Source: a virus
DNA: 34,069 nt
Strand: one strand, 5' to 3'
IMG/VR virus record: IMGVR_UViG_3300042896_001364
Location: 1-34,069 of that record
Below are positions 1 to 24,781 of the stretch, in pieces (the first letter of the stretch is position 1; every line of letters begins with the position of its first letter). The notes under the pieces were generated by a model, which saw only the letters and a program-made list of their open reading frames with translations, was not told the origin of the DNA and did not search any database. Made by a program: the position numbers and the translations under genes.

Positions 1-1257
1 ATGGTCAACAGGCTGAAACTGAATGAGAAAACCGTCCGGGAGGCCGAGAACCTGGGGCGGGACTACCAGATTTTCGACACCGATGTGCGCGGGTTTTCGA
101 TCACCATCTATCCCTCTGGCAACCGGGCCTTTACCCTCGACTACCGGGTCGGCGGGCGGCAGCGGCGGATGACCATCGGGCGCTGGCCGGAATGGACCAC
201 GGTGGCCGCGCGCGAACGGGCAAAGGATCTGCGGCGCGAGATCGATGAAGGAATCGACCCGCTCAACCAGCGGGAAAACGCCCGCGAAGCCCCGAGGGTG
301 AGTGATATGACCAAGCGCTATCTGGAGGAGCACACGCCGCACCTCGCCGCCCGCAACGCCGCCGACCAGCATGCCATAATGGCCAAGCTGGTCGAGCCGG
401 ATTGGGGCAGGAAGCTGGTGACGGAGATCACCAAGGCCGATGTGGAAAAGTTGCTGACCAAGATCGCGGCGGGTCGAGCGCGACCGTCAAAGGTCAAGCC
501 CAACAATCGCGCCAAAAAACTTCAGGGGGTGAAGCCAACGCCAGTGCGCGCAAACCGGGTCGGGGAGGTGCTGCGCAAGATGTTCACATTGGCGGTCGGC
601 TGGGGCTGGCGTGAGGACAACCCTGCCAGCGCCTTTCGCCGCCGCATCGAGAATGAACGCGAACGTTTCCTGACGCCTGAGGAAATAGGCAGACTGGCCA
701 AGGCGCTGGATGGGGCGAATGATCAGCGCGCAGCGGGAATCATCCGGCTCTGCATGCTGACCGGCGCGCGGTCAGGCGAGGTGCGCCAAGCGCGGTTTGA
801 ACAGTTCAACCTCGATCTTGCCAGCTGGTCGAAACCCGCCGCGACCACCAAGCAGCGCAAGATCCACCGCATCCCGATCTCCGGCGATGTGGCGGCCATC
901 GTGCGCCAGCGCGGGTTGCTGGTGCCAAAGGGCAGTCCGTGGCTGTTCCCCGGCGACACGCCCGGCCAGCCGGTCAAGGAAATGCGCCGCTTCTGGGTGG
1001 CTATCCAGAAGGAGGCCAACCTGCCAGAGGTCCGGATCCACGATCTGCGCCACACCTTTGCATCGCTCTTGGTCAGCGGCGGGGCCTCGCTCGAGATGAT
1101 CGGCAAACTGCTGGGCCATACGCAGATGCAGACGACCCAGCGCTATGCTCACCTGATGGACTCGCCCCTGCGAGATGGGGTCAATGCTGTGGCTAGCATC
1201 TTCCGGCCCCGACCACAGCTTGTCCATGATGCCGACCAAGAGAAGAAGATAGCGTGA
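1..1257 (+). CDS. int: Tyrosine recombinase (P4-like phage integrase), element 1
   Basis: This is a site-specific recombinase that would integrate and excise element 1. The N-terminal part (about residues 5-95) is the DUF4102-type arm-binding domain with the typical GRQRRMTIG stretch. A core-binding region follows, then the catalytic domain. Visible catalytic residues are Arg257 (TGARSGE), Lys284, His347 and Arg350 (HDLRH), His373 (LGH) and the nucleophile Tyr382 (RYAHL). The length of 418 aa is normal for the family. The ATG is the first base of the window, so its ribosome site and any earlier start cannot be seen. It is clearly homologous to the integrase at 23445-24716, including the shared PVRANRVGEVLRKMF segment, but it faces the opposite way relative to the genes beside it. 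It converges with the next gene, leaving 42 nt between them. Confidence 0.95.
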   Translation: MVNRLKLNEKTVREAENLGRDYQIFDTDVRGFSITIYPSGNRAFTLDYRVGGRQRRMTIGRWPEWTTVAARERAKDLRREIDEGIDPLNQRENAREAPRVSDMTKRYLEEHTPHLAARNAADQHAIMAKLVEPDWGRKLVTEITKADVEKLLTKIAAGRARPSKVKPNNRAKKLQGVKPTPVRANRVGEVLRKMFTLAVGWGWREDNPASAFRRRIENERERFLTPEEIGRLAKALDGANDQRAAGIIRLCMLTGARSGEVRQARFEQFNLDLASWSKPAATTKQRKIHRIPISGDVAAIVRQRGLLVPKGSPWLFPGDTPGQPVKEMRRFWVAIQKEANLPEVRIHDLRHTFASLLVSGGASLEMIGKLLGHTQMQTTQRYAHLMDSPLRDGVNAVASIFRPRPQLVHDADQEKKIA

Positions 1258-2802: not shown

Positions 2803-3062
2803 ACCGACCTCTTTCTCACCCGATCACAGTTTTGCCAGGCATCTGCGGCTGGATGCAGAACCGCCTGACGGAAGCGCGCGGCATCTTGGCGGACATCCCG
2901 CAACACCCGGACTCGCTGGTCATCCTCGCAGCACGTGTCGTCGCGGGGCAAACTGATAACGCCCGCGAATGCGCTTACGCCATTGACCTGTTGTGCCAAC
3001 TGGATCATCGCCCGTTGCGCGCCATCGCGGCGGCTGCTTTTCCGAACGGAGGCGCCGCATGA
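2799..3062 (+). CDS. Small hypothetical protein of the early operon
   Basis: This is an 87-residue product that I do not recognise. It contains a predicted helical stretch rich in Ala, Leu and Arg (LTEARGILADI and CAYAIDLLCQLDHRPLRAIAAA) and no membrane segment or metal motif. The reason to call it a gene is its position: its ATG overlaps the stop of the HTH gene (ATGA at 2799) and its stop overlaps the ATG of the nuclease gene (ATGA at 3059), so it is probably translated by coupling within one operon. The equivalent position in element 2 is held by the 64-residue gene at 26074-26268, which is not obviously similar. Confidence 0.7.
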   Translation: MNRPLSHPITVLPGICGWMQNRLTEARGILADIPQHPDSLVILAARVVAGQTDNARECAYAIDLLCQLDHRPLRAIAAAAFPNGGAA

Positions 3063-3451
3063 ACCGACGCAGCACCCCCGAAGCCGATGCCCAACGCGCC
3101 ATCGTCCAAGCGTTGCGCTTCGCCCTTCCCCGCGATGCCATCGTCCATCATTGCGCCAACGAGGTGACCGAGTCTGGTTCCCGCGGCCAGACCCGGCAAT
3201 CGATCCTCGTCGGCATGGGCGTGCATACGGGCTTTGCCGATCTGATCGTGATCTCCGGCGGCCGGGTCTTATTCCTCGAGGTCAAAAGTCCGAGCGGCCG
3301 GTTGCGCAAATCGCAGGAGGTTTTCCGTGACAACATGTGCGCCCAAGGCTTCGGCTGGGCGCTCGTCCGGTCTGTTGATGACGCGCTGGGCGCCTTGGCA
3401 GACAATGGTTTCACCAGCCGCGTCTGCCCAGCGCGACGGGTGGCACCATGA
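3059..3451 (+). CDS. VRR-NUC domain nuclease
   Basis: This is a 130-residue protein that is almost entirely one VRR-NUC domain, a PD-(D/E)XK-type nuclease fold known from phage replication and recombination genes. The visible pattern is HHCANE (residues 30-35), GMGVHTGFADL with Asp61, then FLEVK with Glu74 and Lys76, and a downstream Gln86 in KSQEVF. Phage versions act on branched or flapped DNA during replication; the substrate here is inferred from the family. The ATG at 3059 overlaps the previous stop, and the gene overlaps the replication initiator gene by ATGA at 3448. There is no counterpart in the visible part of element 2. Confidence 0.85.
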   Translation: MNRRSTPEADAQRAIVQALRFALPRDAIVHHCANEVTESGSRGQTRQSILVGMGVHTGFADLIVISGGRVLFLEVKSPSGRLRKSQEVFRDNMCAQGFGWALVRSVDDALGALADNGFTSRVCPARRVAP

Positions 3452-4416
3452 GCCACAAGGCGACCGTCTGGGCGCTCGACCAGCGCAGCATCAAGGGCAC
3501 AACCAAGATCGTGCTTTGGCACCTTTGCGACCGCTACAACCCCGAGCATGGCTGTTTTCCGTCGCAGGAACTGCTGGCCTATGACTCTCAGGTCAGCCGC
3601 TCCGGCCTGAACAACCATCTCAGCCATCTGGAAAAATGCGGTCTGATGCGACGCGAACGGCGCATCGATCCGATCACCAAGCGCCAGATGTCGACGCGGT
3701 ACATCCTCGGCTTTGAGGAGGGGTTTACGCCTGCACCTGCGGCTGCGACCGCCGAAAGGCCGGAAGAAATCTCATCCTCGGGGGAAAAGCCGTGTCCAGA
3801 TTTTGCACACGGAGCCGAGTCCAAAAAACAGGCCGCCCCGTGTCCAGAAAATGGCCCGAGCCGTGTCCAGAATTTGGACACTAACCTTGTAAGAGAACCC
3901 CTAAGAGAACCTGTAAAGGAGGAGGAGGAGGAAGACGCTGCGCGCGACGCTGATTTTGATCGGTTCTTCGTGGAGTTGCTGACCGCGCTGGGCTTCGCCG
4001 CAAACGCCGCCCTTCCCGCTTGGTGGCAGGGCTGGCCTGCACGGGTGCATATTCGGCGCTGGCGGCATGACCTCGGACTGTCGGAGGCCCGGATCATTCA
4101 GACCGCGAGGGAAACTCGCAGTGATCATCCCAATCCGCCTGACGGTCCCAAGGCCCTCGATAGGTTCATGGAACGCGCAGCCCAGCGCGATGCCCAAAAG
4201 GCGGCGACCTCGACCAGTTCCGGCAAAGCCAAGCGCCGCCGCAAGGCGGAAACCCAAGCGCCGAACAACGATGATGAAGTGGCGGTCTACTACGCCGCAA
4301 TCGTGAACTCGGACGATTATTTTCCCCGCGATTTGTTCGGCAGCCGCACCTGCGGATTGATGTTAGCGCGTGGCCTCGTCACGCCGGAACGCCTGCGCCA
4401 GCGGATGGGACAGTGA
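3448..4416 (+). CDS. Phage replication initiator, lambda-O-like, with winged helix N-terminus
   Basis: The 322-residue protein begins with a winged helix-turn-helix of the HTH_36 type (about residues 1-92; recognition region around CFPSQELLAYDSQVSRSGLNNHL). Then comes a low-complexity linker, an acidic run EEEEEDAAR near residue 155, and a C-terminal domain that may contact a helicase loader. The DNA encoding the linker carries four iterons (3790-3881). The origin-within-initiator-gene layout is known from lambda O. The start overlaps the stop of the nuclease gene, and the stop overlaps the GTG start of the methyltransferase. The N-terminal domain is similar to that of the product of 26265-27125, while the C-terminal parts differ. 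The assignment as initiator rests on domain, position and iterons together. Confidence 0.8.
   Translation: MSHKATVWALDQRSIKGTTKIVLWHLCDRYNPEHGCFPSQELLAYDSQVSRSGLNNHLSHLEKCGLMRRERRIDPITKRQMSTRYILGFEEGFTPAPAAATAERPEEISSSGEKPCPDFAHGAESKKQAAPCPENGPSRVQNLDTNLVREPLREPVKEEEEEDAARDADFDRFFVELLTALGFAANAALPAWWQGWPARVHIRRWRHDLGLSEARIIQTARETRSDHPNPPDGPKALDRFMERAAQRDAQKAATSTSSGKAKRRRKAETQAPNNDDEVAVYYAAIVNSDDYFPRDLFGSRTCGLMLARGLVTPERLRQRMGQ
3790..3881 (+). repeat. Iteron array inside the initiator gene, putative replication origin of element 1
   Basis: There are four copies of a CCGTGTCCA-type unit starting at 3790, 3815, 3838 and 3861, with spacings of 25, 23 and 23 nt. The best copy is a palindrome, TGTCCA-N5-TGGACA. 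The first and third copies are slightly imperfect and the second is degenerate. Two direct repeats of TAAGAGAACC (3890-3899 and 3902-3911) lie just downstream in a stretch of lower G+C that could serve as the unwinding element. Confidence 0.7.
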
Positions 4417-5663
4417 ATGGCATGGTGTCACGTCCCCGGCGTGGATTGTCCCTCTGCGCAGGCGGCGGAGGCTTGGATCTGGGCGTCATGCTCGCTGAAC
4501 CCGGCTATCACACCCGCGCATTTGTGGAATGGGAAGACTGGCCCCGCACAGTTCTCATCGCCGCCCAGCGCGCCCGGTATTTCGCCCCCGCGCCAATCTG
4601 GGATGATCTGCGGACATTCGATGCCCGACCCTTCTGCGGTGCCTTCGACACCGTCACCGCCGGATATCCTTGCCAGCCCTTCAGCGCCGCCGGTAAGCGT
4701 GGCGGTGCTGACGACCCTCGGCACCTCTGGCCAGAGGTGGCCCGCGTCATCGGCGAGTGCCAGCCCGAATGGGTGTTTCTCGAAAACGTCGCAGGTCATG
4801 TCACCCTCGGCCTTGAATCCGTGCTGCGAGAGCTTTGGGACTTGGGCTACACGCCTGCGGCGGGCCTGTTCTCTGCGGCAGAGGTTGGCGCGCCGCACCA
4901 GCGGTTGCGCATCTTCATCCTGGCCCACACCGATGAGCCTGCATCCCGGCACAGCGAACTACAGCCCGGCCGGAAACAGCGACTTCACCCGCAAGGCCGA
5001 GGCGCTGGCGCTGGGCATCAGCAACTGGTCGACGCCGAAGGCGACCGATGGCGCGAAAGGTGGGCCGGGGCAGAGCTATGGCTCGGGCGGGATACCACCG
5101 TTGCCAGCGCAGGCGGCACAGTGGCAAACACCTGTGGCCGACGACCAGGCCGACCGTCTTCGCGGCAAGATCAACAGCCGGGGCGAGCCGAAACTGAGCG
5201 CGCAGGCGATCCAGTGGCCGACCCCGGCGGCGCAGAACTGGAAGGGCAGCAGCCCGGCCAGCGTGACCCGGGCCGATGGCAAGTCGAGGATGGATATCCT
5301 GCACTACCGGGCGGAACAGGGCTTCATCCACCCGGCCCCGGTGATCGCGCCGCATGGGCTGCAACCCTCGCATCACGCCCCGATCTCGCGCCCGCTGTGG
5401 GCTTCGATGATTGCCTCGCATGGGCGCGTCGTCTCGCGGCGGATTCTGAAGGGTCGGGCGCGGCGGCGGCTGAACCCGCTGTTCGTCGGCTGGTTGATGG
5501 GCTGGCCCATCGGTCACGCGCTCTGCGCCTGCTCGGCAATGGAGTTCACCCTCTGGCAGCAGCGCATGCGTGGCGCGCTCTCACGGCTGCCCACGGCCTC
5601 CGGCCCGTGGATCTGGCGCCCGGCGGAGGAGCCGGAGGGCCCAGCGCAGATGAACCTCTTTGA
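4413..5663 (+). CDS. C5 cytosine-specific DNA methyltransferase
   Basis: This enzyme transfers a methyl group from S-adenosylmethionine to carbon 5 of cytosine in DNA. In 416 residues the family motifs are: I, GLSLCAGGGGLDLG (11-24); IV, GYPCQPFS with catalytic Cys87; VI, ENV (124-126); VIII, QRLR (163-166); and X, LLGNGVHPLAAAHAW (about 372-386). The GTG start at 4413 overlaps the preceding stop (GTGA); the ATG at 4422 is an alternative. No cognate endonuclease lies next to it, so it may protect phage DNA from host restriction. The oddity is that codon bias moves to the +1 frame from about 4933 and a second family-like product is encoded there (4933-5679), yet motif X stays in this frame. 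Confidence 0.85.
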   Translation: MNGMVSRPRRGLSLCAGGGGLDLGVMLAEPGYHTRAFVEWEDWPRTVLIAAQRARYFAPAPIWDDLRTFDARPFCGAFDTVTAGYPCQPFSAAGKRGGADDPRHLWPEVARVIGECQPEWVFLENVAGHVTLGLESVLRELWDLGYTPAAGLFSAAEVGAPHQRLRIFILAHTDEPASRHSELQPGRKQRLHPQGRGAGAGHQQLVDAEGDRWRERWAGAELWLGRDTTVASAGGTVANTCGRRPGRPSSRQDQQPGRAETERAGDPVADPGGAELEGQQPGQRDPGRWQVEDGYPALPGGTGLHPPGPGDRAAWAATLASRPDLAPAVGFDDCLAWARRLAADSEGSGAAAAEPAVRRLVDGLAHRSRALRLLGNGVHPLAAAHAWRALTAAHGLRPVDLAPGGGAGGPSADEPL

Positions 5664-5679
5664 AGGAATGCTGCCATGA
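4933..5679 (+). CDS. Overlapping +1-frame product with phage-methyltransferase-like tail
   Basis: From ATG 4933 this frame encodes 248 residues, almost wholly inside the methyltransferase gene. It has features recalled from C-terminal parts of phage cytosine methyltransferases: WSTPKATDGAKGG (about residue 34), WPTPAAQNWKG (about 95), and LNPLFVGWLMGWPIG (about 180-193) followed by a TLWQQRMRGAL helix. Third codon positions are strongly G/C in this frame from 4933 on, and its stop forms an ATGA overlap with the next gene (5676-5679), as at most other junctions of this operon. No ribosome site is visible before 4933, so it may be made by +1 frameshifting from the methyltransferase rather than by independent initiation. 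A frameshift-scarred pseudogene is the other explanation. Confidence 0.65.
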   Translation: MSLHPGTANYSPAGNSDFTRKAEALALGISNWSTPKATDGAKGGPGQSYGSGGIPPLPAQAAQWQTPVADDQADRLRGKINSRGEPKLSAQAIQWPTPAAQNWKGSSPASVTRADGKSRMDILHYRAEQGFIHPAPVIAPHGLQPSHHAPISRPLWASMIASHGRVVSRRILKGRARRRLNPLFVGWLMGWPIGHALCACSAMEFTLWQQRMRGALSRLPTASGPWIWRPAEEPEGPAQMNLFEGMLP

Positions 5680-6359
5680 GCATGCAGGGACGGATCGGGC
5701 GCGCAGGCGGCGCACGGGTGAAACGTGCGCTGGGCGTTCAGGCCATTCTAGAATGGGCGTTTCGGGTGGAAAAAGCCCAGCTGGAGCTGCCACAGCGGCG
5801 AGACATTGATGAGGAAGGGTTCGGGTTTGGCATGGAATACGTGTTGATCCAGCGGGCGCTCCTTGGGTGCAAGGTGGACGGCGGCGGCCATAGTTCCCAG
5901 TCTTACACCCATCAGGATGCCGAGATCGTGGCCGCCACCCTTGCGGGGATGCCCAACAACTTGGGCGGCAAACGCATGGCGATCTACGTCGCCGAACTGG
6001 CGCGGGCCGGCATGACGCCCGACTGGCTGCCCGGCGTCGTCCCGCGTTGCGTACCCCTCGAGACCAAATGCAACCAGCATGGCGAGCGCTCTAGCACCAT
6101 CGTGGTTGGCACCGAACGCGTGCTGTCGCGTGGCAAGTGGCGCACCGTCGAGGTTCTGGCATGTCCCGTCACCTGGCGACCGCACCCAGAGCAGATCGCC
6201 TCCGCTCGGCGCGGCTATGAGGATTGGTGGCTGGCGCTGGATTGGGTGCGGGATGGGCTGTTGGCGGGTAATATGCTTCGTGAGGTGCAGGTGACGACGG
6301 CGATGCCTAAAGTCCAGCCGTGGCACGAAAAACATGCCGAGAACTTTAATCGCATGTGA
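5676..6359 (+). CDS. Conserved phage-type hypothetical protein
   Basis: This is a 227-residue protein whose general pattern I recall from Rhodobacteraceae prophages (ALGVQAILEWAFRVEKAQLELP near the N-terminus; FGMEYVL; AELARAGMTPDWLPG; CPVTW), but for which I know no function. It has no membrane segment or signal peptide and several Trp residues in the C-terminal third. The ATG overlaps the stop of the +1-frame product at 5679, so it belongs to the early operon. It is the last phage-like gene before the R-M cargo. Confidence 0.75.
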   Translation: MSMQGRIGRAGGARVKRALGVQAILEWAFRVEKAQLELPQRRDIDEEGFGFGMEYVLIQRALLGCKVDGGGHSSQSYTHQDAEIVAATLAGMPNNLGGKRMAIYVAELARAGMTPDWLPGVVPRCVPLETKCNQHGERSSTIVVGTERVLSRGKWRTVEVLACPVTWRPHPEQIASARRGYEDWWLALDWVRDGLLAGNMLREVQVTTAMPKVQPWHEKHAENFNRM

Positions 6360-6439
6360 AAGCCCCCAATGGCGATTTTATTGGTCGCATGCCGTCTTCT
6401 TCATCGCTAGGTTGACGAAAAATATTGTCTGGGGTGCAT

Positions 6440-9400
6440 ATGACGGCCATCGATAGAATCCTTCAATCCTACCGCGATGCTGCTGTCACCGAACGCGAAA
6501 AGGGCACCTACTTTGAACGCCTCGGGCTGGCTTTCTTCCTAAACGACCCGGTTCAGTCTGAGGAGTACGAGGCGGTCTGGACATGGTCTGAATGGGCAAA
6601 GGCCAATGGTCGTGATGGCAAGGATGTCGGCATCGATCTGGTCGCAAAACTGCGCAATGAGGATGGTTTTGCTGCGATTCAAGCCAAATTCTATGCCGCT
6701 GATACACGAATCCAGAAAGCCAATATCGACAGCTTCATCTCCGCCTCGGGCAAGGAGCCTTTCCGCAGGCGCGTCGTTCTCGACACGACCGAAAGGGAAT
6801 GGGGCTCCAACGCCGAGGAAATGATCCGCGATCAGGCCATCCCGGTCGTTCGTATCGGGCTGACCGACCTTCGCGAAAGCCGGATCAACTGGACCATTTT
6901 TGAGGCGCGCGGTGAGATCGTGCTCAGCGCCAAGAAGACCTTGATGCCGCACCAGCGGGACGCGCTGGCGGACGTCAGCAAGGGCCTCGCTGCGGCTGAT
7001 CGCGGCAAGATGATTATGGCTTGCGGCACGGGCAAGACCTTCACCTCGCTGAAAATCGCCGAAGCCATCGCGGGCAAAGGCAAGCGCGTTCTGTTTATGG
7101 TGCCATCACTGGCGCTGATGTCCCAGACTGTGCGTGAATGGACCAATGACACCGAAACGCCGATCCGCGCCTTCGCGGTATGCTCTGACGCCCATGTCGG
7201 CAAGCGCCGTAAAAGCACGGACGACATCGCGGAAATCGAAATCCACGATCTGGCGTTTCCGGCCACCACAGACCCGGTCAAAGTTGCCGAAAAGGCGGGT
7301 GCGGACGATCCGGAACGGATGACGGTCATCTTCTCGACCTATCAGTCCATCGTCACACTGACCCGTGCTCAGGAAGCAGGTCTGCCCGATTTTGACCTGA
7401 TCATCTGCGATGAGGCGCACCGCACCACCGGTGCCACCCTCGACGGCGATGAGGAATCAAATTTCGTCAAGATCCACAGCAATGACAATGTGAGGGCCCG
7501 CAAGCGCCTTTACATGACCGCCACGCCCCGGATCTTTGGTGATAATGTTCGCAGCAAGGCGGAAGAAGTCGGTGCCGACCTTGTTTCTATGGACGACTCC
7601 GCGCTGTTTGGCGAAATATTGTTTCACCGTGGCTTTGGCTGGGCGGTGCAGAACGGCCTGCTCACCGATTACAAGGTCATCGTGCTGGCGATGGACGAGG
7701 GTTTGGTCAGCGCGGCGGTGCAAAAACGGCTCGGCGACGCGGGCAGTGAACTGGTGTTGGATGATGCAACCAAGATCATCGGTTGTTACAAGGCGCTGAC
7801 CAAGATCGACCTAAAAATCGACGTCGCCGCGGATCCTCGCCCGATGCATCGCGCCATCGCGTTTGCTAAGGACATCCGCAGCTCCAAACTGATCCGCGAC
7901 GAATTTGCCGCCGTGGTGGATGAATATCTCGGCCAGGACAGTCTGATCGAGAGCGACGAACCTACCAGCCACCTCCAGTGCGAAATCGAACATGTTGACG
8001 GCACTTTCAACGCCAAGACCCGCGGCGCACTGCTGGATTGGCTGAAGGCCGATGCGGGAGATAATACCTGCCGTATCCTGACGAACGCCCGCTGTCTGTC
8101 CGAAGGCGTCGATGTTCCAGCCCTTGACGCCATCATGTTCCTGCACCCCCGCAAGAGTCAGATCGATGTCGTCCAGTCGGTCGGTCGAGTAATGCGGACG
8201 TCCGAAGCCACGGGCAAGAAAATGGGCTATGTTATCCTCCCGGTCGGCGTGCCCGCCGGGGTTCCAGCCGAACAGGCACTGGCCGACAACGAACGCTACC
8301 GCGTCGTCTGGCAGATCCTGAACGCCCTGCGCGCCCATGACGAACGCTTCGACAGCACCATCAACAAAATGTCGCTTGGCCAAGACATCAGCGATACCAT
8401 TGAAATCGTCGGCATCACCGCCGAGTCCGAAGAGCTGAAATCTGTCACCGCGGTCGTCCAGAACTTGCCGAACAAAACCAAGGCAGCCGGTTCCGGTATC
8501 GGCTCGGGCGGTGGCGGAAATGGCGATGATGTCATCGAGGGGCCTGAACCAACCCAAACCGAGATGACCTTCTCGATCGACGAATTCTCCCGCGCCATTA
8601 TGGCCAAGATCGTCAAGAAATGCGGCACCCGCGATTATTGGGAGGACTGGTCAGCCTCCATCGCAGAGATCGCCAAGAACCACATCACTCGCCTGACCGC
8701 CCTGCTGAAAGACCCCGACACCGAAGCGCGCCGCGCCTTCGATGCCTTCCTTGGCGAACTGCGTGACGATCTGAACGACACCATCTCTGAGAGCGACGCC
8801 ATCGAGATGCTGGCGCAGCACATCATCACCCGGCCCGTGTTCGAAACCCTCTTCGAAGGCCACAAGTTCACCGCCGAAAACCCTGTCTCCCGCGCCATGC
8901 AGCGCGTGCTGGATGTGCTGAACGAGGCCAACCTCGACAAGGAATCCCGAGACCTCGAAAAGTTCTACGCCAGCGTCAAGCTGCGGTCACAGGGAATCAC
9001 CGACCCCCAGGCCAAGCAGAAACTGATCGTCGAGCTTTACGACAAGTTCTTCCGCCGCGCCTTCCCCCGCACCACCGAAAAGCTGGGCATCGTCTACACC
9101 CCGGTCGAGATCGTCGATTTCATCATCCATTCGGTGAACGAGGTGCTGCAATCCGAATTCGGCCAGACCCTCGGCTCCCCCGGCGTCCACATCATCGACC
9201 CCTTCACCGGCACCGGCACCTTCATCACCCGTCTGCTGCAATCCGGCCTGATCGCGCCCGAAGAGATGGAGCACAAGTTCCGCCACGAAATCCACGCCAA
9301 CGAGATCGTGCTGCTGGCCTATTACATCGCCGCGATCAACATCGAGGCGGTTTATAACGGGCTGCAGGGCGGCGACTATGTGCCGTTCGAGGGCATCTGC

Positions 9401-11314
9401 CTGACCGACACCTTCCAGATGTATGAAAGCGACGACCTGATCTCGCACTACATGCCCGACAACTCGGAACGGCGGAAGCGGCAGAAGGCTACGGATATCC
9501 GCGTGATCGTGGGCAACCCACCCTATTCGGCGGGGCAAGATAGCGCAAACGACAACAATGCCAATGTGAGCTATGCGACTCTTGATGGGCGCATCCGAGA
9601 TACTTATGCAGCGCGTTCAACAGCAACCCTCAAGAGCGCGCTTTACGACAGCTATATCAGGTCGATCCGCTGGGCGTCGGATCGGATTGGCGATGCTGGT
9701 GTTGTGGGGTATGTTACCAACGCTGGCTGGGTCGATGGAAATGCGGCAGATGGCCTGCGCGCATGTTTGGCGGAAGAGTTCAGCAACCTTTACATTTTTC
9801 ATTTGCGTGGAAACCAACGCACTAGCGGGGAGCTATCTCGTCGTGAGGGAGGCAAGATATTTGGCTCAGGTAGCCGCGCACCGATCGCCATCAGCATTTT
9901 CGTCAAGAACCCCAATGCCACCGAGTATGGTCGTATCCACTTTCATGATATCGGAGACTACCTCGATCAGAAACAGAAGCTTGCGATCGTTCGAGATTTC
10001 GCAAGCATCGGAGGAATATCTAGAGCCCAAGGTTGGTCGCAAATCACTCCTGATGAGCGCAACGATTGGCTAAATCAGAGAGACTCGTCTTTTGACCGCT
10101 ATTTACCAATGGGAGATCGGTCTGGTTCTCCGGCCATTTTCTCCGCATTTTCTCGCGGATTTCTTACGAGTCGAGATGCTTGGTGCTATAATTCCTCCAA
10201 AATTCAACTTTGCGAAAAACTGATTTCGATGATTGCGGAATACAATAGGCAGCTTGTAAAGGTCGGTTCAGGTGACATCGAGTATATTGCAGACTCTGAT
10301 CCAACCAAAATTTCTTGGTCGGCCGATTTAAAACGACGTCTTGGAGCCCGGCAGAAGATCGAATTCAACGGCGCTGCAATAGCACTTTCAGTTTACCGGC
10401 CGTTCACAAAACAATTAGTCTGTACAGATAAGAACTTGATCGAACGCCCTGGCAAACTATTGGATATGTTTCCCACCCAACAGATAGAAAATCGCGTGAT
10501 TTCTATTAAGGGAAATTGGAGGAAAGACGGTCAGATCGCGTTAATGTTGGACGGCATATATGCGGATCAAACTGACACAGGGGCGCAGTGCTTCCCTCTA
10601 TACCTTTATAATCAGCAGCACGAGGAACCCAGTGGCCTCTTCGGTGGCCAAACGTCCGACAATCAACGTCGCGACGGGATCACTGACGCTGGCCTGAAGC
10701 ACTTCCAGGACGCTTATCCCGGCGAGACGATCAACAAGGAAGACCTCTTCTACTACGTCTACGGCCTGCTGCATTCCGAGGATTACCGCGCGAAATACGC
10801 CGACAACCTGTCCAAGGAACTGCCCCGCATCCCCCGCGTGAAAACCGCCGCCGACTTCTGGGCCTTCAGCCGCGCGGGCCGCGAGCTCGGCGACCTGCAT
10901 GTGAACTATGAAACGGTCGAACCCTACCCCGTCACGATCAAGCAAGGCGACCTGCGCCTGGCCGACATCAAGAACCCCGAGGCCTTCTACCGCGTCACCA
11001 AATGGGCCTTCGGCAAGACCGGCAAGGAAAAGAACAAGACCACCGTCATCTACAACGCCAACATCACCATGCAGGACATCCCGTTGGAAGCCTATGACTA
11101 CGTCGTCAATGGCAAGCCCGCGCTGGAATGGGTGATGGAACGCCAGGTGGTCAAGACCGACAAGGATAGCGGCATCGAAAACGACGCTAACCGCTACGCC
11201 ACCGAAACCGTCGGCAACCCCGCCTACCCGCTGGAACTGTTCCAACGCGTCATCACCGTCAGCCTGCGAACCATCGAAATCGTGCGCGGCTTGCCGAAGC
11301 TGGAGGTAATGTGA
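6440..11314 (+). CDS. Type ISP restriction-modification enzyme (nuclease-helicase-methyltransferase)
   Basis: This single polypeptide of 1624 residues both restricts and methylates DNA, like LlaGI and LlaBIII (about 1570-1580 aa). Domain order: Mrr-like nuclease with Asp66 and QAK (81-83); SF2 translocase with Walker A ACGTGKT (about 195), ICDEAH (about 320), MTATP (about 360) and QSVGRVMR (about 580); a helical coupler; an N6-adenine methyltransferase with motif I DPFTGTGTF (about 920) and NPPY (about 1028); then a C-terminal target-recognition region. The recognition part (about 9530-10640) has visibly lower G+C than its flanks, as expected for an exchanged specificity domain. ATG 6440 is preferred (GGGG 5 nt upstream); TTG 6425 is possible. 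No separate specificity subunit is needed. Confidence 0.9.
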   Translation: MTAIDRILQSYRDAAVTEREKGTYFERLGLAFFLNDPVQSEEYEAVWTWSEWAKANGRDGKDVGIDLVAKLRNEDGFAAIQAKFYAADTRIQKANIDSFISASGKEPFRRRVVLDTTEREWGSNAEEMIRDQAIPVVRIGLTDLRESRINWTIFEARGEIVLSAKKTLMPHQRDALADVSKGLAAADRGKMIMACGTGKTFTSLKIAEAIAGKGKRVLFMVPSLALMSQTVREWTNDTETPIRAFAVCSDAHVGKRRKSTDDIAEIEIHDLAFPATTDPVKVAEKAGADDPERMTVIFSTYQSIVTLTRAQEAGLPDFDLIICDEAHRTTGATLDGDEESNFVKIHSNDNVRARKRLYMTATPRIFGDNVRSKAEEVGADLVSMDDSALFGEILFHRGFGWAVQNGLLTDYKVIVLAMDEGLVSAAVQKRLGDAGSELVLDDATKIIGCYKALTKIDLKIDVAADPRPMHRAIAFAKDIRSSKLIRDEFAAVVDEYLGQDSLIESDEPTSHLQCEIEHVDGTFNAKTRGALLDWLKADAGDNTCRILTNARCLSEGVDVPALDAIMFLHPRKSQIDVVQSVGRVMRTSEATGKKMGYVILPVGVPAGVPAEQALADNERYRVVWQILNALRAHDERFDSTINKMSLGQDISDTIEIVGITAESEELKSVTAVVQNLPNKTKAAGSGIGSGGGGNGDDVIEGPEPTQTEMTFSIDEFSRAIMAKIVKKCGTRDYWEDWSASIAEIAKNHITRLTALLKDPDTEARRAFDAFLGELRDDLNDTISESDAIEMLAQHIITRPVFETLFEGHKFTAENPVSRAMQRVLDVLNEANLDKESRDLEKFYASVKLRSQGITDPQAKQKLIVELYDKFFRRAFPRTTEKLGIVYTPVEIVDFIIHSVNEVLQSEFGQTLGSPGVHIIDPFTGTGTFITRLLQSGLIAPEEMEHKFRHEIHANEIVLLAYYIAAINIEAVYNGLQGGDYVPFEGICLTDTFQMYESDDLISHYMPDNSERRKRQKATDIRVIVGNPPYSAGQDSANDNNANVSYATLDGRIRDTYAARSTATLKSALYDSYIRSIRWASDRIGDAGVVGYVTNAGWVDGNAADGLRACLAEEFSNLYIFHLRGNQRTSGELSRREGGKIFGSGSRAPIAISIFVKNPNATEYGRIHFHDIGDYLDQKQKLAIVRDFASIGGISRAQGWSQITPDERNDWLNQRDSSFDRYLPMGDRSGSPAIFSAFSRGFLTSRDAWCYNSSKIQLCEKLISMIAEYNRQLVKVGSGDIEYIADSDPTKISWSADLKRRLGARQKIEFNGAAIALSVYRPFTKQLVCTDKNLIERPGKLLDMFPTQQIENRVISIKGNWRKDGQIALMLDGIYADQTDTGAQCFPLYLYNQQHEEPSGLFGGQTSDNQRRDGITDAGLKHFQDAYPGETINKEDLFYYVYGLLHSEDYRAKYADNLSKELPRIPRVKTAADFWAFSRAGRELGDLHVNYETVEPYPVTIKQGDLRLADIKNPEAFYRVTKWAFGKTGKEKNKTTVIYNANITMQDIPLEAYDYVVNGKPALEWVMERQVVKTDKDSGIENDANRYATETVGNPAYPLELFQRVITVSLRTIEIVRGLPKLEVM

Positions 11315-13825: not shown

Positions 13826-14590
13826 TCAGGCAGTTTCGGTGGATTTTCGGGTGCGGCTTTGCGCCAGACGATAGCTCTCGCCGTTCATCTCGAGGATGTT
13901 GACGTGGTGCGTCAGCCGGTCGAGCAGCGCGCCGGTCAGGCGTTCGGTGCCGAAGGTTTCGGTCCATTCATCGAACGGCAGGTTGCTGGTGATCAGCGTG
14001 GCCCCGCGCTCGTAGCGCTGCGAGATCATCTCGAACAGCAGTTCGGCGCCGGTTTTGGAGAGGGGCACGAAGCCCAACTCATCGATGATGAGCAGCTTGA
14101 CTGCGGCCATCTGTTTCTGGACGCGAAGTAGCCGGCGCTCATCGCGGGCCTCCATCAGTTCATTGACCAGCGCGGCGGCGGTGGTGAAGCTGACCGACAT
14201 CCCCTTCTGGCAGGCGGCCAGACCCAGGCCGAGGGCGATATGGGTCTTGCCGGTTCCACTCGGCCCGAGGGCGATGACGTTCTCCCGCCGATCGATCCAT
14301 TCGCAGCGGGCCAGTTCCAGCACCTGCATCTTGTTGAGTTTGGGGATCGCCTTGAAGTCGAAGCTGTCAAGACTCTTGGTGGCCGGGAACTTCGCCGCCT
14401 TGATGCGGCGCTCCACCATCCGCCGCTCACGGTCGATCAGTTCCAGCTCGACCAGGCGCGCCAGGAACTGGACATGGTCCCGCCCCTCGGCCGCGCATTG
14501 GCGCGCCAGCTTCTCGTATTCCCGCAGGAAGGTCGGCAGCTTCAGGGTCTTCAGATGATGGACAAGCAGGATCTTCGGGGCCTCGGTCAT
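13826..14590 (-). CDS. istB: IS21 helper ATPase IstB
   Basis: This AAA+ ATPase of 254 residues is related to DnaC and helps the IstA transposase choose and capture target DNA. Walker A is GPSGTGKT (109-116) and Walker B is LLIIDELG (166-173). The N-terminal helical region is the usual IstB lead-in. The start overlaps the istA stop by ATGA at 14587-14590, the classical translational coupling of IS21 elements. The length is normal and no disruption is seen. Confidence 0.95.
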   Translation of the reverse strand: MTEAPKILLVHHLKTLKLPTFLREYEKLARQCAAEGRDHVQFLARLVELELIDRERRMVERRIKAAKFPATKSLDSFDFKAIPKLNKMQVLELARCEWIDRRENVIALGPSGTGKTHIALGLGLAACQKGMSVSFTTAAALVNELMEARDERRLLRVQKQMAAVKLLIIDELGFVPLSKTGAELLFEMISQRYERGATLITSNLPFDEWTETFGTERLTGALLDRLTHHVNILEMNGESYRLAQSRTRKSTETA

Positions 14591-16098
14591 TCCGCCGCCT
14601 CCGACATCAGCGCCATGTAGCTGGCGGTCGAGGTCGCCTCCACATTCGCGCGCGGCAGATAGGGATAGCTTGCAAGGTCGAGCTTCGGCGGTCGGCTTTC
14701 GATCCGACAGAGCAGCAGGTGCTTGACCGCGTCGAAGCCCACCGCACGCAGTCGAAGGGCATCCTTGATCGCTCCGTGCAGATCATTGAGGCCAAAGGTC
14801 TCGAGCAGGCGCAGAACCTGGACATACTCGCGCCGCCCCATCTTGAGCATGCGCGCCTCCATGAGGCGACGCAGGGTATGAAACTCTTCGGGCAGGTTCC
14901 ATTCTGCCAAGGGTGCCGCTTGATCCAAGGCATTGATCTTGCGCTCGATCAGGGGAAGGTAATGGACCGGATCGAAGACGGCGTCCTCGCGCGCGTAGCA
15001 GCGTGGGTGCCGGGCAATCACCTCCCCGCGGCAGCCGATCACGACCTGGTCGACATAGCCCCGCACCCACACATCCTGATGGCCATAGGCAACCGGCACC
15101 GAGTAGTCGTTGGTGTCATAGCGCACAAGCGACTGTGAACTGACCTTGCCGTTGGCCTGGTCGCAGGCCTCGAATGGCGCGCCAGGCAGGTGCTTCATCG
15201 CGGTCAGATCACGCTGCAGCCGATCGCCGATCGGCTCCTTGTGACTGCGCAGAATGTCGTGCTGGCGCTTGCGGCACTGGGCTTCGAGGTCGGCGTTGAA
15301 CTCCACCCAACTGGCAAAGCGGGGGATGGGCACCATGAAGTTGCGCCGTGCGTAACCCACCAGCCCCTCGACGCTGCCCTTGTCGTTGCCCTTGCCCGGC
15401 CGCCCATACCGATCCCGGAACAGGTAATGCGACTGCAGGGCGCTGAACAGCGTGGCGCGCTTGCGCGTCCCGTCCGGCAGGATCTTCGACACAAGGCAGC
15501 GGTCGTTGTCATAAAGCGCCGTTTGCGGCACCCTGCCGAAGAAGGCAAAGGCATGGACATGGCCATCCATCCAGGCCTCCGCCGTCGCCGCAGGATACGT
15601 CCGCACGAAACAGCTATCGCTGTGCGGCAGGTCCATGACGAAGAAATGGGCCTTCTGCTCGACGCCGCCGATGATCACAACGGCTTCGCCAAAATCCGCC
15701 TGCGCATGCCCCGGCGGGTGGACGAGCGGCACGAACATCTCCCGGCCCCGCAGCTCCCGATCCCGAACGTAATCCTTGATGATCGTGTATCCGCCGGTGA
15801 AACCATGCTCTGCCCGTAAACGGTCGAATACACGCTTGGCGGTATGATGCTGCTTGCGATGAACATCCTTGTCGCCGTCGAGCCAGCTGTCGATGATCTC
15901 GGTGAACCCATCCAGCTTCGGCCGCTTGACAGGAGACGTCCGCCGGTAGCCGGGGGGGATCGAAAACGCCATGGCCTTGTCGACAGTGTCGCGCGAAATG
16001 TTGAAATGGCGCGCCGCAGCGCGCTTGCTCATGCCGTCGGCACAGGCCAGACGAACCTTCAGGTAAAGTTCCACGGTGTAGATCTCCAAACCCTCCAT
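14587..16098 (-). CDS. istA: IS21 transposase IstA
   Basis: This 503-residue transposase has an N-terminal helix-turn-helix (about residues 8-45) that would bind the terminal repeats. The DDE catalytic core has Asp135 in AQADFGEA, an Asp in YDNDR (197 or 199), and Glu244 in KGSVEG. A C-terminal beta-barrel-type region follows. It appears full length and intact, so the IS could still be active. Transcription runs leftward away from hsdR, starting about 95 nt inside the right end. Confidence 0.95.
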   Translation of the reverse strand: MEGLEIYTVELYLKVRLACADGMSKRAAARHFNISRDTVDKAMAFSIPPGYRRTSPVKRPKLDGFTEIIDSWLDGDKDVHRKQHHTAKRVFDRLRAEHGFTGGYTIIKDYVRDRELRGREMFVPLVHPPGHAQADFGEAVVIIGGVEQKAHFFVMDLPHSDSCFVRTYPAATAEAWMDGHVHAFAFFGRVPQTALYDNDRCLVSKILPDGTRKRATLFSALQSHYLFRDRYGRPGKGNDKGSVEGLVGYARRNFMVPIPRFASWVEFNADLEAQCRKRQHDILRSHKEPIGDRLQRDLTAMKHLPGAPFEACDQANGKVSSQSLVRYDTNDYSVPVAYGHQDVWVRGYVDQVVIGCRGEVIARHPRCYAREDAVFDPVHYLPLIERKINALDQAAPLAEWNLPEEFHTLRRLMEARMLKMGRREYVQVLRLLETFGLNDLHGAIKDALRLRAVGFDAVKHLLLCRIESRPPKLDLASYPYLPRANVEATSTASYMALMSEAAE

Positions 16099-16149: not shown

Positions 16150-18801
16150 CTATCCCGCCGCTACCGTGGCCGAGTTTTGCACCGCCGTTCTCAGGATCAG
16201 CGACAGATCATCGAACTTGGAAATGACATCGCTTTCCTCGGCCCGAATATAGGTGTCGATCAAATGTCGCATCGCAGGCTCGTACATCTTGAGATCGATG
16301 TAATCGCCGCTTGCCAGCTTGACCTCGTTTCGCACCTTTTCGAAGTGATCGACGTCCGCCTTGATGGCTGCGGCTTCAATTTCGGAATAGCCTGCCTCAG
16401 CCATTTCATTCGCAACATCGGCGTAGGCCCGCAAAAGCGCGGCCGCCAACCGATAAAGGGCGAGACGCTTCGGCTCATTCTCTTTCAACGCGTCTTTGTC
16501 GGCCGTATCTTCGGCGCAGAAGAACCGCAGATAGGCGTGGGTGTCGCGCGGCGCATCGACCGGCTCGCACAGGGCCCTGACCGCCTCAAGCGCATCGTCG
16601 AGGCGTTCCCGAGCCATCTTCAGGCGATCGGTCAGCAGCCCGGCTACATCTTCCTTGTCATAGCCGTCGAAAGCCTCGGTCGTGTAATCCTTGATCGAGG
16701 TCTCAAGGCTTTTGAACAAGTCCTTGTAGTCAATGACATAGCCATATTCCTTGTCGTCGCCGTCCAGCCGGTTGACCCGGCAGATCGCCTGGAACAGGCC
16801 ATGATCCTGCATCTTCTTGTCGATGTAGAGGTAAGTTGCCGACGGCGCATCGAATCCAGTGAGAAGCTTGTCCACCACGATCAGCAGCTTCATCTGCCCG
16901 GGCTCGTCGATGAACTTCTTCTTGGCCTGTTTCTCGAATGCCTCGGCCTCCTGACCGCCCAGCATCTTGGTGTAGATGTCGTACTGGCGCAGCCGTTCGG
17001 TCAGCCCCTCACCGCTTTCTTCGCCTTTGATATCGCTGGCCGACGGCTTGTAAGACGTCACAATCGCGCATTTACCTGCCAAATCGGTCTTGTCGAACAG
17101 CTCGTAGAACTTGCAAGCCTGATAGATGCTTGACGACACCAGCATCGCATTGCCGTGGCCGCTTTTCAGCCGGTCCTTCAACTCCATATCCATCAGGATA
17201 TCGCCGACGATCTTTTCCAGCCGCGATTGGCTCGACAGCACCTTTTGCATGGTGCCCCAGCGCTGCTTCAGCTGCGCCTTGGCCAAATCGTTCAGGCCTT
17301 TGGTTTTCAATTCGAACCATTGATCGATCTTCGCCTGCGACGTCACGTTCTGGTCGATATCCCGCGCCTCATAGCGCAGATCAAGCACGACGCCGTCCGC
17401 GACCGCCTCGTTGAATTTGTAGGTGTGGATGTAGGGGCCAAACACTTCGAGGCTGGTTTGCTTGTCCTCTTTCAGCAGCGGCGTTCCGGTGAAACCGATG
17501 AACATCGCATTCGGCAGGATCGCCTTCATCGCCTTGTGCAGATCGCCACTTTGCGAGCGGTGGCATTCGTCGACAAAGACGTAAACGTCGCCCTTGGCGC
17601 GAAAATCCTTCGGCAGCGCCTGGCGCACCTCTTCGATGTAGCCGCTGACATCAGCGTCAGACTCTTCCTTGCCACCGAACTTGTGGATCAGCGAACACAG
17701 CAGCCATGGGGCCTCTGCATTCAACTGCGCTATAAGTTCGGCGCCGCTTTTGCTGCGCAGGATGTCCTCGTTGACGCCCTTGAAAACCTTCTCGATCTGT
17801 TCGTCCAATTCTGTGCGGTCGGTGATGACAAGCACCCGCGCGCCCTTCACATTCTCCCGTATCCACTTGGCCAGCCAAACCATTGTCAGGCTTTTGCCGG
17901 ACCCTTGGGTGTGCCAGATGATCCCGCCCTCGCGCCGCCTGATCTGCTCCTGGGCCGCATGCACCCCAAAATACTGGTTGTGACGGCAGGTCTTCTTGAC
18001 GCCCGCGTCATACACCAAGAAATTATGGATCATGTCGAGGAAGCGATCCTTGGCGCACAGGCGCAGCAACGCGGTGTCCAATCGCGAAACGCCCGGCACG
18101 TCGGCCAGATAACGCTGGTCACGCTTGTCGATGCCCTCGCGGTAAGCCGGGTTCTCTTCGCGCCAGGCCAGCCAATACTTCTCCTTCGTCTCGATCACGC
18201 CATAGCGCAGCCCCTCGGTGTCATTCCCCGCCATGATCATCTGCATGGTGGTGAAGAACCGCTGGATGAACATCGGCTTTTGGTTGTCGAGGTTCTGGCG
18301 GATGCCTTCCGATACCGAAACGGTCGAACGCTTCAGTTCCAGCACGCCCAGCGCGATGCCGTTGACATAGATCACCACATCCGGCCGCTTGCCGAAGGTT
18401 TTGCCATCCGAGGTCGCGGCCTTGATCGCCACCTCTTCGGCAATGGCAAAATGGTTGGCCTCTGGGTCTTTCCAGTCGATCAGCCAGACGGTCTGGGTCT
18501 GCTCGCCCACATCCGCCTTCACCTTCACCCCATAGCGCAGCAGGTCGTAAACGTCGCGATTGATGTCATAAAGGCTGCGCGATTGGTCCGTCGCCACCTT
18601 GGTCAGATGCGCGATGGCCTTGGTGATTAGCGCGGGGGCGTAGCCCATGGCCTCAAGGAACGGGCGCAGGTAGGTGGGCTCAATATTCGCGTTGCCCACC
18701 CGGTCGATCCAGTTGCCCAGATGGTCATAACCAAGCTGGTCCTGAAACAGCTGCACGACCCGCGCCTGTGTCCGCTTTTCGATCTGGCCCACGGTGCTCA
18801 T
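16150..18801 (-). CDS. hsdR: Type I restriction subunit HsdR, C-terminally truncated by IS21
   Basis: This is the endonuclease/translocase subunit of a type I R-M complex. In 883 residues: PD-ExK nuclease with Asp141, Glu155 and Lys157 (LELK); Walker A TQGSGKS (298-304); DECH box (411-414); FTGTP (438-441); later helicase motifs GFDAPSATYLYIDKK and QAICRVNR; then the start of the DUF3387-type C-terminal domain. Family members usually have 1000 or more residues. Here homology stops at KFDDLSLI; the last 14 residues and the TAG are encoded by the IS21 right terminal repeat (16150-16193). The missing part normally helps dock HsdR on the methylase core, so restriction may be lost while modification continues. 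The start overlaps the previous stop (ATGA at 18798). Confidence 0.9.
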   Translation of the reverse strand: MSTVGQIEKRTQARVVQLFQDQLGYDHLGNWIDRVGNANIEPTYLRPFLEAMGYAPALITKAIAHLTKVATDQSRSLYDINRDVYDLLRYGVKVKADVGEQTQTVWLIDWKDPEANHFAIAEEVAIKAATSDGKTFGKRPDVVIYVNGIALGVLELKRSTVSVSEGIRQNLDNQKPMFIQRFFTTMQMIMAGNDTEGLRYGVIETKEKYWLAWREENPAYREGIDKRDQRYLADVPGVSRLDTALLRLCAKDRFLDMIHNFLVYDAGVKKTCRHNQYFGVHAAQEQIRRREGGIIWHTQGSGKSLTMVWLAKWIRENVKGARVLVITDRTELDEQIEKVFKGVNEDILRSKSGAELIAQLNAEAPWLLCSLIHKFGGKEESDADVSGYIEEVRQALPKDFRAKGDVYVFVDECHRSQSGDLHKAMKAILPNAMFIGFTGTPLLKEDKQTSLEVFGPYIHTYKFNEAVADGVVLDLRYEARDIDQNVTSQAKIDQWFELKTKGLNDLAKAQLKQRWGTMQKVLSSQSRLEKIVGDILMDMELKDRLKSGHGNAMLVSSSIYQACKFYELFDKTDLAGKCAIVTSYKPSASDIKGEESGEGLTERLRQYDIYTKMLGGQEAEAFEKQAKKKFIDEPGQMKLLIVVDKLLTGFDAPSATYLYIDKKMQDHGLFQAICRVNRLDGDDKEYGYVIDYKDLFKSLETSIKDYTTEAFDGYDKEDVAGLLTDRLKMARERLDDALEAVRALCEPVDAPRDTHAYLRFFCAEDTADKDALKENEPKRLALYRLAAALLRAYADVANEMAEAGYSEIEAAAIKADVDHFEKVRNEVKLASGDYIDLKMYEPAMRHLIDTYIRAEESDVISKFDDLSLILRTAVQNSATVAAG

Positions 18802-19541
18802 GACGGAACCTGCTTCCTGTTAACTTGCGGCAGCGGCGCCCATATCCAGCCCTCGGACACCGGGGCATCTGCGGGCGGTGCTTCCAGCCAGTCGCGCCGC
18901 AGCACAAAGGCATGGGCGATATAGGCACAGACCTCGGCGTCCATGATATCCGCCTTTGGGCCGTTGATGGGCTTGTCGAGTTCGGGAAACACACCCCGCG
19001 CCCGCGCCCGGCAGAGCGCGGGATAGGTTTCGATCAGGGTCATCTGCGCGCCATCCGACCAGACGCCCGGCGCGATCATCTGGGTGAAGCGGGCGACGGC
19101 GTGCATGGCCTTGGTCGACTGGCTGCCGATCATGTCCTTGACGGCCGACAGCGAGGTCAGGCCTTCCTCGTCAAGGCGCCGTTCAGTGAAGCGGTAAAGA
19201 TAGGGGTTCTCATAAGACCGGCCGATCTGGTCCAGCGGTACGCCGCCGGTGATCAACTGGGCGAAAGCGGCCGGAAAGCCGAGCGGGGCGTCGATGGCGA
19301 TTGTGGCTTTGGCTGTGCTTGCAAGCGGGGGCAGCTTGCACAGGGCGAGGATCGCCGTCAGGAAATCGGTGCCTGTGGTTGAGGCGTTGATGGTCAGACG
19401 CAGGTTGCCGCGCCAGGGCTGGCCGATCCGCGCGCCCGCGCCATCCAGCACCACCAGCGCATCGCGGCTGGTGGGGTTCTTGTCGCAGTTCCAGCCGCCG
19501 ACATCCCAGCCGATGAACACCTGATCTCCGCTCGCCGTCAT
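18798..19541 (-). CDS. DUF429 (RNase H-fold) protein embedded in the hsd operon
   Basis: The 247-residue product fits DUF429, a family predicted to have an RNase H-like fold and possibly nuclease activity. Visible landmarks are GWDVGG (11-16), IDAPLGFP (83-90), ETYPA (171-175) and an Asp-rich helix around Asp198-Asp201, spaced like an acidic active site. It overlaps hsdS (ATGA at 19538) and hsdR (ATGA at 18798), so all three are almost certainly co-translated, which implies a job linked to the restriction system. The biochemical function of DUF429 is not established. Confidence 0.75.
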   Translation of the reverse strand: MTASGDQVFIGWDVGGWNCDKNPTSRDALVVLDGAGARIGQPWRGNLRLTINASTTGTDFLTAILALCKLPPLASTAKATIAIDAPLGFPAAFAQLITGGVPLDQIGRSYENPYLYRFTERRLDEEGLTSLSAVKDMIGSQSTKAMHAVARFTQMIAPGVWSDGAQMTLIETYPALCRARARGVFPELDKPINGPKADIMDAEVCAYIAHAFVLRRDWLEAPPADAPVSEGWIWAPLPQVNRKQVPS

Positions 19542-20731: not shown

Positions 20732-20733
20732 CG

Positions 20734-23175: not shown

Positions 23176-23444
23176 GAGGCCCCCGACTATTTTATTGACA
23201 CTACAGCCTGATGATTGGCCTTGATGCATTTGTTTTTCGACAGCAAGGCAGGTATCGCCAAGTCTTTGTGGCCCGGCCCAGCGTCAACCAGACCTCCCAA
23301 CCGACTGTTCTGCCTTCCGCATGCATCGTCGGCCTAGGCGTGGAGCGCCCTGCCGGAGATGCCCGGCCATTTGCAGTCAGATTGCCCGGTTGTGCAAGCC
23401 GCGGTTGACCTCGAAAGTCGCTTCATTGGCCCTTTTGGGCTGGA
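23176..23444. other. Junction between hsdM and element 2, likely attachment-site region
   Basis: The hsdM promoter must lie at the left of this 269-nt gap; a TAAAAT hexamer sits 12 nt before the GTG, but I see no matching -35. The end of the element 2 integrase lies on the right, so an att core would be expected here. No tRNA gene or tRNA 3' end and no repeat of another window segment was found. Confidence 0.4.
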
Positions 23445-24716: not shown

Positions 24717-24781
24717 GCGGGCTCCCCTTGTCGCACCGACTGAGCAAAGAGAATCGGCAAAGAGCAACCTGCTCTACACGA

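Follow-up and report, generated by a model that had tools for sequence, protein, structure and literature searches.

Where does the first prophage in this stretch of DNA begin to replicate, and could its origin lie inside the very gene that encodes its initiator? The window, by which we mean the whole stretch that was analysed, comprises 34,069 bases of a virus record, and the host of the integrated virus appears to be a marine-type bacterium. Our answer, drawn from sequence comparison, is that positions 3790-3924 very probably form the replication origin of a lambda-like prophage, set within its own initiator gene. We favour a lambda-type origin because the position of the repeats, the order of the parts (DNA-binding part, iterons, easily melted DNA, C-terminal part) and their conservation in relatives all fit one. 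The features on which the argument turns are collected in Table 1.

Table 1. Coordinates of the features discussed, by position in the window
Feature	Position	Strand	Basis
Tyrosine integrase, element 1	1-1257	+	Pfam and PHROG matches, locus order
VRR-NUC nuclease gene	3060-3451	+	4-nt overlap with the initiator start; conserved neighbour
O-like replication initiator gene, 322 aa (HTH_36 winged helix, disordered linker, helical C-terminal part)	3448-4416	+	Profile matches, AlphaFold2 model
DNA-binding winged-helix part, codons 1-95	3448-3732	+	Pfam HTH_36 at residues 15-66, AlphaFold2 model, fold matches over 1-93
Recognition-helix region of the window's initiator	codons 47-60
Iteron 1, imperfect palindrome CCGTGTCCAGATTTTGCACACGG	3790-3812	+	CCGTGTCCA at 3790; GTGTCCA...TGCACAC at 3792-3810
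Iteron 2, half-site CCGAGTCCA	3815-3823	+	Direct reading, word search
Iteron 3, half-site CCGTGTCCA	3838-3846	+	Direct reading, word search
Iteron 4, near-perfect palindrome CCGTGTCCAGAATTTGGACAC	3861-3881	+	CCGTGTCCA at 3861
Predicted unwinding element	3869-3924	+	Least stable 40 bp of the gene from 3869; DNA-conserved AACCTTGTAAGAGAACC repeats, codons 146-159 = 3883-3924
C-terminal helical part, codons 158-322	3919-4413	+	AlphaFold2 model; inheritance independent of iteron class
DNA methyltransferase-like gene	4417-5679	+	Directly downstream of the initiator; in 75 loci
Conserved gene, PHROG match of unknown function	5676-6359	+	Follows the initiator directly, overlapping it slightly, where the methyltransferase is missing
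Palindromes of the second element	26594-26612, 26624-26640, 26648-26664, 26670-26685

What kind of protein does the gene encode?

The protein matches Pfam HTH_36 (PF13730) at 44.7 bits, against a curated cut-off of 25, and among the PHROGs it matches phrog_345 and phrog_391 ('replication initiation O-like') and the replication initiation family phrog_1032 (E 4.7e-21, 1.1e-17 and 4e-20); phrog_391 and phrog_345 are matched by lambda O too. Lambda O also matches Pfam Phage_rep_O (PF04492) with an E value of 5.7e-36, whereas the window's initiator is not listed for that model at E values up to 10, and we therefore take it to act as lambda O does while lying outside that family. Comparison of profiles with lambda O alone gave no match, no NCBIfam model reached its cut-off, and a PDB sequence search with the initiator profile returned nothing significant.

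In the AlphaFold2 model residues 100-152 are disordered, which covers the iteron-coded codons 115-145, and the C-terminal part is helical, with no significant match in a fold search. A fold search that tested mainly residues 1-93 found that the winged helix resembles many regulators (MarR/SlyA-like), and also RepA, RctB and initiators of the Geobacillus DnaB kind, a likeness that is in itself no proof of function. The initial annotation had assigned replication initiation to a gene otherwise taken for a mere helix-turn-helix protein. It is true that phage records label related initiators only 'helix-turn-helix', but the PHROGs already carry the name 'replication initiation O-like', and with HTH_36 proteins well established as initiators of Paracoccus plasmids (PMC3832669), the assignment is not new as such.

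What lies in the middle of the gene?

Four units of the CCGTGTCCA type, starting at 3790, 3815, 3838 and 3861, can be read directly in the window, just as had been claimed, and these are the four iterons of gene 3448-4416, placed between its winged-helix part and its C-terminal part. Their steps of 25, 23 and 23 nt agree with the 23-25 nt first given and are not multiples of three, so one DNA word passes through three reading frames and repetition at the protein level is no explanation for it. The palindromic form ascribed to the units stands for the outer two, near-perfect at 3861-3881 (GTGTCCA-GAATT-TGGACAC, 3863-3881) and imperfect at 3790-3812, but not for the middle two, which are only half-sites; the repeat search also recovered the outer two as an inverted pair of 21 nt (3792-3812/3861-3881, 86% complementary). 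Exact CCGTGTCCA has three copies on the two strands of the 34-kb window, all within the iterons of the initiator gene, and with at most one mismatch there are 14 matches in the window against 8.85 expected, five of the 14 falling inside 3790-3869. Behind the iterons the repeat search found the AT-richer repeats that had been noticed earlier (TAAGAGAACCCC/TAAGAGAACCTG, 3890-3913), which are two 12-nt repeats, TAAGAGAACC.

The site is also the same as in lambda, as the initial annotation held: codons 115-145 of 322 here, and in the lambda record codons 117-145 of 299 (iterons 39034-39118 in O 38686-39585), with the same order of parts. GC skew, which had been put forward as a check, showed no clear switch at 3.8 kb in a scan that was uninformative.

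Is it the DNA or the peptide that is repeated?

To see the locus in its family we drew on 80 loci from genomes, 32 from virus contigs and the two window copies (L001, L002), 114 genes in all, and left out L002, L008, L074, L080, L113 and L114 as partial or too distant before counting; this gives 108 usable genes and 97 distinct coding sequences, the window's included. The null was a shuffle of synonymous codons within each gene, which keeps the protein and the codon usage. Homologues without repeats in the linker had been named as grounds for abandoning the idea, and what we found is that linker 8-mer pairs, direct and inverted, exceed all 200 shuffles in 96 of the 97 distinct coding sequences (mean 51 against 3.3), the sole exception, L026, being marginal, with one shuffle in 200 reaching its score. 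For the window's gene the best 150-nt stretch, codons 113-163, has a repeat score of 38 against a null mean of 9.9, and 0 of 200 shuffles reach 38.

The picture is much the same when each gene is scanned blind for its best 150-nt stretch, with 100 shuffles: 95 of 97 initiator genes beat all shuffles, and of 97 control ORFs taken at those loci a single one does. Abnormally high null scores, due we think to masked bases, mark L051, which is among the two failing initiator genes and is also the source of the single passing control. With lambda O as positive control the scan picks codons 109-159, where its four annotated iterons lie, with 0 of 200 shuffles, and Rhodobacter phage RcOceanus, Labrenzia phage LagS-V1, Rhizobium phage PPF1 and the Roseicitreum plasmid prophage each give 0 of 200 as well.

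Could selection nevertheless be acting on the linker peptide, with its PCPE..GHG-type motifs, and not on the DNA? PCPExGHG-like motifs do recur in frame, with EP-type repeats (LVREPLREP) after them, but in each class the iteron word falls in every one of the three codon phases, the choice among synonymous codons is fixed far more than in the remaining gene, the signal is lost in protein-preserving shuffles and the linker is predicted to be disordered, all of which leaves a peptide-level explanation scarcely credible to us.

Where might the DNA open?

In nearest-neighbour calculations the 40 bp of lowest stability in the coding sequence lie at the border of the iterons and the AT-rich DNA in 96 of 97 genes. 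In the relatives the stretch behind the last palindrome, from AACCTTGTAAGAGAACC to GTAAAGGAGGAG, is conserved at the DNA level and is kept by rare codons: valine in the AT-rich motif is written GTA in 194 of 194 cases, against 36 of 1135 elsewhere, and arginine AGA or AGG in 131 of 133, against 171 of 2993 elsewhere, while the GC content of the motif is 0.42 compared with 0.62 for the gene. The excess of same-codon use is +0.17 at codons 114-134, +0.32 at 135-144 and +0.28 at 145-158, and in the C-terminal part it is mostly about zero, but for a weaker +0.15 at codons 159-180. Pairs of RAACC spaced 12 bp apart are present in 94 of 97 family genes. We also considered a 12-bp AT-rich repeat common to unrelated O-like families, and rejected it, as only 4 of 19 others have one (null mean 1.4, maximum 4), which gives the idea no support beyond the family and its near relatives.

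This stretch bears on a second question, which is whether the repeats are instead operators through which the initiator autoregulates its operon, with no origin involved. The winged helix of the initiator is MarR/SlyA-like, and intragenic sites could block elongation. Set against that, the sites lie some 340-430 nt inside the coding sequence, with no sigma-70-like promoter near the iterons in a promoter and terminator scan that was itself uninformative; the conserved, low-stability, rare-codon stretch behind the sites in 96 of 97 genes is something that an origin needs; and the named PHROG matches are replication proteins. We consider operators an unlikely account.

How might a lambda-type origin work here, and how does it compare with known ones?

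If the lambda-type origin is the right reading, initiator dimers would attach to the iterons by their N-terminal winged helix, and several such dimers would wrap the four sites. The A-rich, easily melted stretch just downstream, for which low stability and DNA-level conservation were computed, would then open, and the C-terminal part may help to recruit the host's replicative helicase. The iteron-coding stretch is predicted to encode a disordered linker, so the protein could tolerate it.

Iterons in the middle of O next to an AT-rich region are textbook knowledge for lambdoid origins, and Stx phages have an origin with six iterons (PMC7466680). The present locus is like lambda and the lambdoid O genes in having dyad-symmetric iterons at 20-25 nt steps in mid-gene, an AT-rich stretch after them and N- and C-terminal parts on either side, and its prophage relatives carry lambda-type terminase and portal genes. 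It is unlike lambda in its iteron sequences, which are unrelated, in matching HTH_36 and not Phage_rep_O, in the failure to recognise an adjacent P-type loader, and in its GC-rich genes, within which rare codons keep the stretch AT-rich.

Paracoccus plasmids are known to encode HTH_36 replication proteins (PMC3832669 and PMC6209633). The rep genes of pAES1, pAES7, pMARC3 and pMOS2 share with ours the Pfam HTH_36 match, a related host group and iteron-type origins, but according to PMC3832669 the plasmid repeats lie in oriV regions, whereas here they lie inside the gene. In pAES7 an inverted partial iteron lies over the rep start codon, in the pAES1-type pKL1 the oriV is upstream, and the plasmid section of that paper describes no repeats in the middle of rep. 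HTH_36 proteins are also found in the replication regions of Stx phages (PMC8951638). The RcC phages of Rhodobacter capsulatus, RcOceanus being one, have a related initiator gene with in-gene repeats of its own and a AACCTTGTAAGAGAA stretch. The initiator of RcOceanus, however, is annotated only as a helix-turn-helix protein, and the terms 'iteron' and 'origin of replication' are absent from the main text of PMC8601537, which deals with the RcC phages.

Are origin types exchanged between phages?

The last palindrome, iteron 4 in the window, was the unit by which the relatives' genes were classed, and it sorts them into four classes: A, GTGTCCA (9 genes, including the window's); B, GTGTCCG (42); C, GTGTCTC (8); and D, ATCTCC (38). 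The arms of the palindrome co-vary between classes (GTGTCC...GGACAC against ATCTCC...GGAGAT), steps of 23 and 25 nt are dominant, and all three codon phases occur in each of the four classes. The first residue of the four-residue recognition-helix stretch that we compared is Arg throughout classes A-C (57 of 57 parsed genes) and Ile or Val throughout class D (38 of 38), two of the 97 genes, both of class A, not having been parsed. The four iteron classes thus match recognition-helix types, through few independent changes, D against the rest having changed once on the N-terminal tree. LagS-V1, from outside the gene set, has class-C iterons with a helix close to that of class C, and RcOceanus has GACTCC-type sites with Val in its recognition helix.

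The two ends of the protein have different histories. On an N-terminal tree from which the recognition helix was left out, the iteron classes can be accounted for by 5 changes (mean 41, minimum 34 when the labels are shuffled), and on the C-terminal tree by 35 (mean 43, minimum 36), both being quick trees without bootstraps. Among the 97 genes, 45 have a closest C-terminal relative from a different iteron class; the highest C-terminal identity among such cross-class neighbours is the 96% between L019 (class B) and L073 (class D), whose N-terminal identity is 54%. Over 103 different-class pairs, which involve 48 genes and are not mutually independent, median DNA identity stays at 0.57-0.64 over codons 47-136, rises to 0.85 at the last iteron and to 0.93 at codons 146-159, and lies at 0.83-0.89 further on; the left border of the exchanged block is less sharp than the right one. 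When L088 is compared with L040 the upstream DNA is 0.91 identical, the downstream DNA is alike too, and the middle is the main difference.

From such comparisons the DNA-binding domain and the iterons appear to be exchanged between phages as one block, and this mosaicism is stronger evidence than the pairing of helix and iteron on which part reads the sites. A bolder proposal, on which we are evenly divided, is that the domain and its cognate iterons make up an exchangeable origin-specificity cassette, swapped as a block of about 300 bp that leaves the unwinding stretch and the C-terminal part in place. With the origin inside the initiator gene, on one piece of DNA, the domain and its cognate sites would travel together. 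In laboratory lambdoid hybrids the N-terminal half of O reportedly goes with the origin type and the C-terminal half with the P type; the exchange here is of a like kind, but in natural sequences (the 35 class changes on the C-terminal tree).

The sharp jump in DNA identity in those 103 pairs might also be expected of a mere recombination hot spot, or of a site for some other DNA-binding protein such as a repressor or nuclease, with replication starting elsewhere, and there are indeed a nuclease gene and a methyltransferase gene flanking the initiator. That the iteron class tracks the initiator's own DNA-binding domain and not its C-terminal part, and that the position and order of the parts equal those of the annotated lambda origin, makes us think such a hot spot or foreign site very unlikely. 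If the origin-specificity cassette is real, a single crossover would be enough for a phage to switch origin type, which might help it, for instance, to avoid having its initiator titrated by the iterons of a resident prophage. Ectopic or plasmid-borne lambda origins have been reported to block lambda (PMC4488673 and PMC3349717). The related idea of incompatibility, in which co-resident prophages avoid sharing a class, found no support: among 15 assemblies with two or more loci each, grouped by accession and with L080 left out, 11 of 32 pairs are of the same class, against 11.3 expected (P of at most 11, 0.55).

What surrounds the initiator?

The gene order is conserved, running from integrase (92 loci), excisionase-like gene (102) and VRR-NUC gene (97) through the initiator to the methyltransferase (75) and the gene at 5676-6359 (105). 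This last gene, with a median identity of 76% across its 105 loci, occupies the place of lambda P: it comes immediately after the initiator in 32 loci (with a 4-nt overlap in those listed) and after the methyltransferase in 66. It has no Pfam, NCBIfam or PDB sequence match, its only match being to a PHROG of unknown function, and we regard its product as a candidate partner protein of the initiator. Profile and PDB sequence searches of the neighbours recognised no lambda P-type helicase loader adjoining the initiator.

Further along in relatives, defence genes come first and are followed by terminase, portal, S49 protease and tape-measure genes of the lambda type; GpA terminase is present in 28 of 31 virus records, the window's included, and the records that were scanned for them also have the lambda portal, the S49 protease and the tape measure. 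The prophage of pRA03 has terminase and capsid genes and a relative of the type ISP enzyme. Satellite elements without structural genes had been a candidate explanation (none of 30 records has the PF04860 portal or the PF03237 terminase), rejected for the family on the strength of the GpA terminase in 28 of 31 records and the lambda portal, which showed the family to be ordinary lambda-like prophages. Within element 1 of the window we recognised no structural genes, and no terminase turned up ahead of the second integrase at 23445.

Two restriction systems are found in element 1, a type ISP/IIG enzyme and a type I set (6425-11314 and 16150-23229), separated by an IS21-type transposon at 13826-16098, and relatives have other defence genes at this position. 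One relative of element 1, represented by L118 and L140, is a largely complete prophage at 53902-83542 of the repABC plasmid pRA03 of Roseicitreum antarcticum, in which the type ISP enzyme is 85% identical. Prophages of this Rhodobacterales type are also borne by MAG contigs labelled Burkholderiaceae or Acidovorax (L005, L017, L018, L043 and L081), for which binning contamination seems likelier than transfer. A tRNA scan of the window found none.

How far does the arrangement reach, and what is new?

Beyond the family we looked at 40 of the 64 loci L141-L204, which are alphaproteobacterial matches to O-like PHROGs (the rest being weaker matches or repeats of the same genes); 10 were without a usable ORF, which leaves 30. 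Seventeen of these 30 beat all 200 shuffles and 13 do not, so in-gene repeats, though common, are not universal in the wider family. After the removal of 7 genes that came from three hand-picked genomes the figure is 11 of 23, so the lambda arrangement possibly extends much wider than the textbook phages. The in-gene repeats of the wider set are mostly unrelated to those of the window, and in many cases AT-rich DNA comes next. Strong examples of such repeats, mostly unrelated and many with AT-rich DNA behind them, are L148, L156, L157, L162, L169/L199, L172/L198, L187 and L194, and there could be separate origin types among them.

Among the titles and abstracts listed in our searches of the open-access literature we found neither an in-gene origin in Rhodobacterales prophages nor a natural exchange of a cassette of DNA-binding domain plus iterons. 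The kind of origin is known; what appears to be new is the HTH_36 initiator, the four matched classes of site and helix, the cassette exchange and the unwinding stretch written in rare codons. A large group of Rhodobacterales prophages gains a predicted location for its origin and, with it, a testable minimal replicon, and the four iteron classes offer a label of replication type that can be read from sequence. The natural sequences suggest that, through the DNA that they share, a DNA-binding domain and its sites can be passed on together as a single cassette, and the matched sets of helix and site (Arg with GTGTC, Ile or Val with ATCTC) are a resource for understanding how an HTH_36 initiator chooses its sites.

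The window may hold a second case. A further phage element starts with the integrase at 23445-24767; it has an O-like gene of its own and a lambda-type terminase, and the GpA match at 33431-34069 belongs to this element. Its O-like HTH_36 gene, at 26265-27125, has in-gene palindromes of the CCGGAA...TTCCGG type and then AT-rich GATACCTCAAAGATACTAAAA, with a weak signal in the scan (2 of 200 shuffles). In L120, a 58% identical relative of this second initiator, the scan finds no significant repeats (85 of 200 shuffles), and by eye its linker has palindromes that differ from those of the second element.
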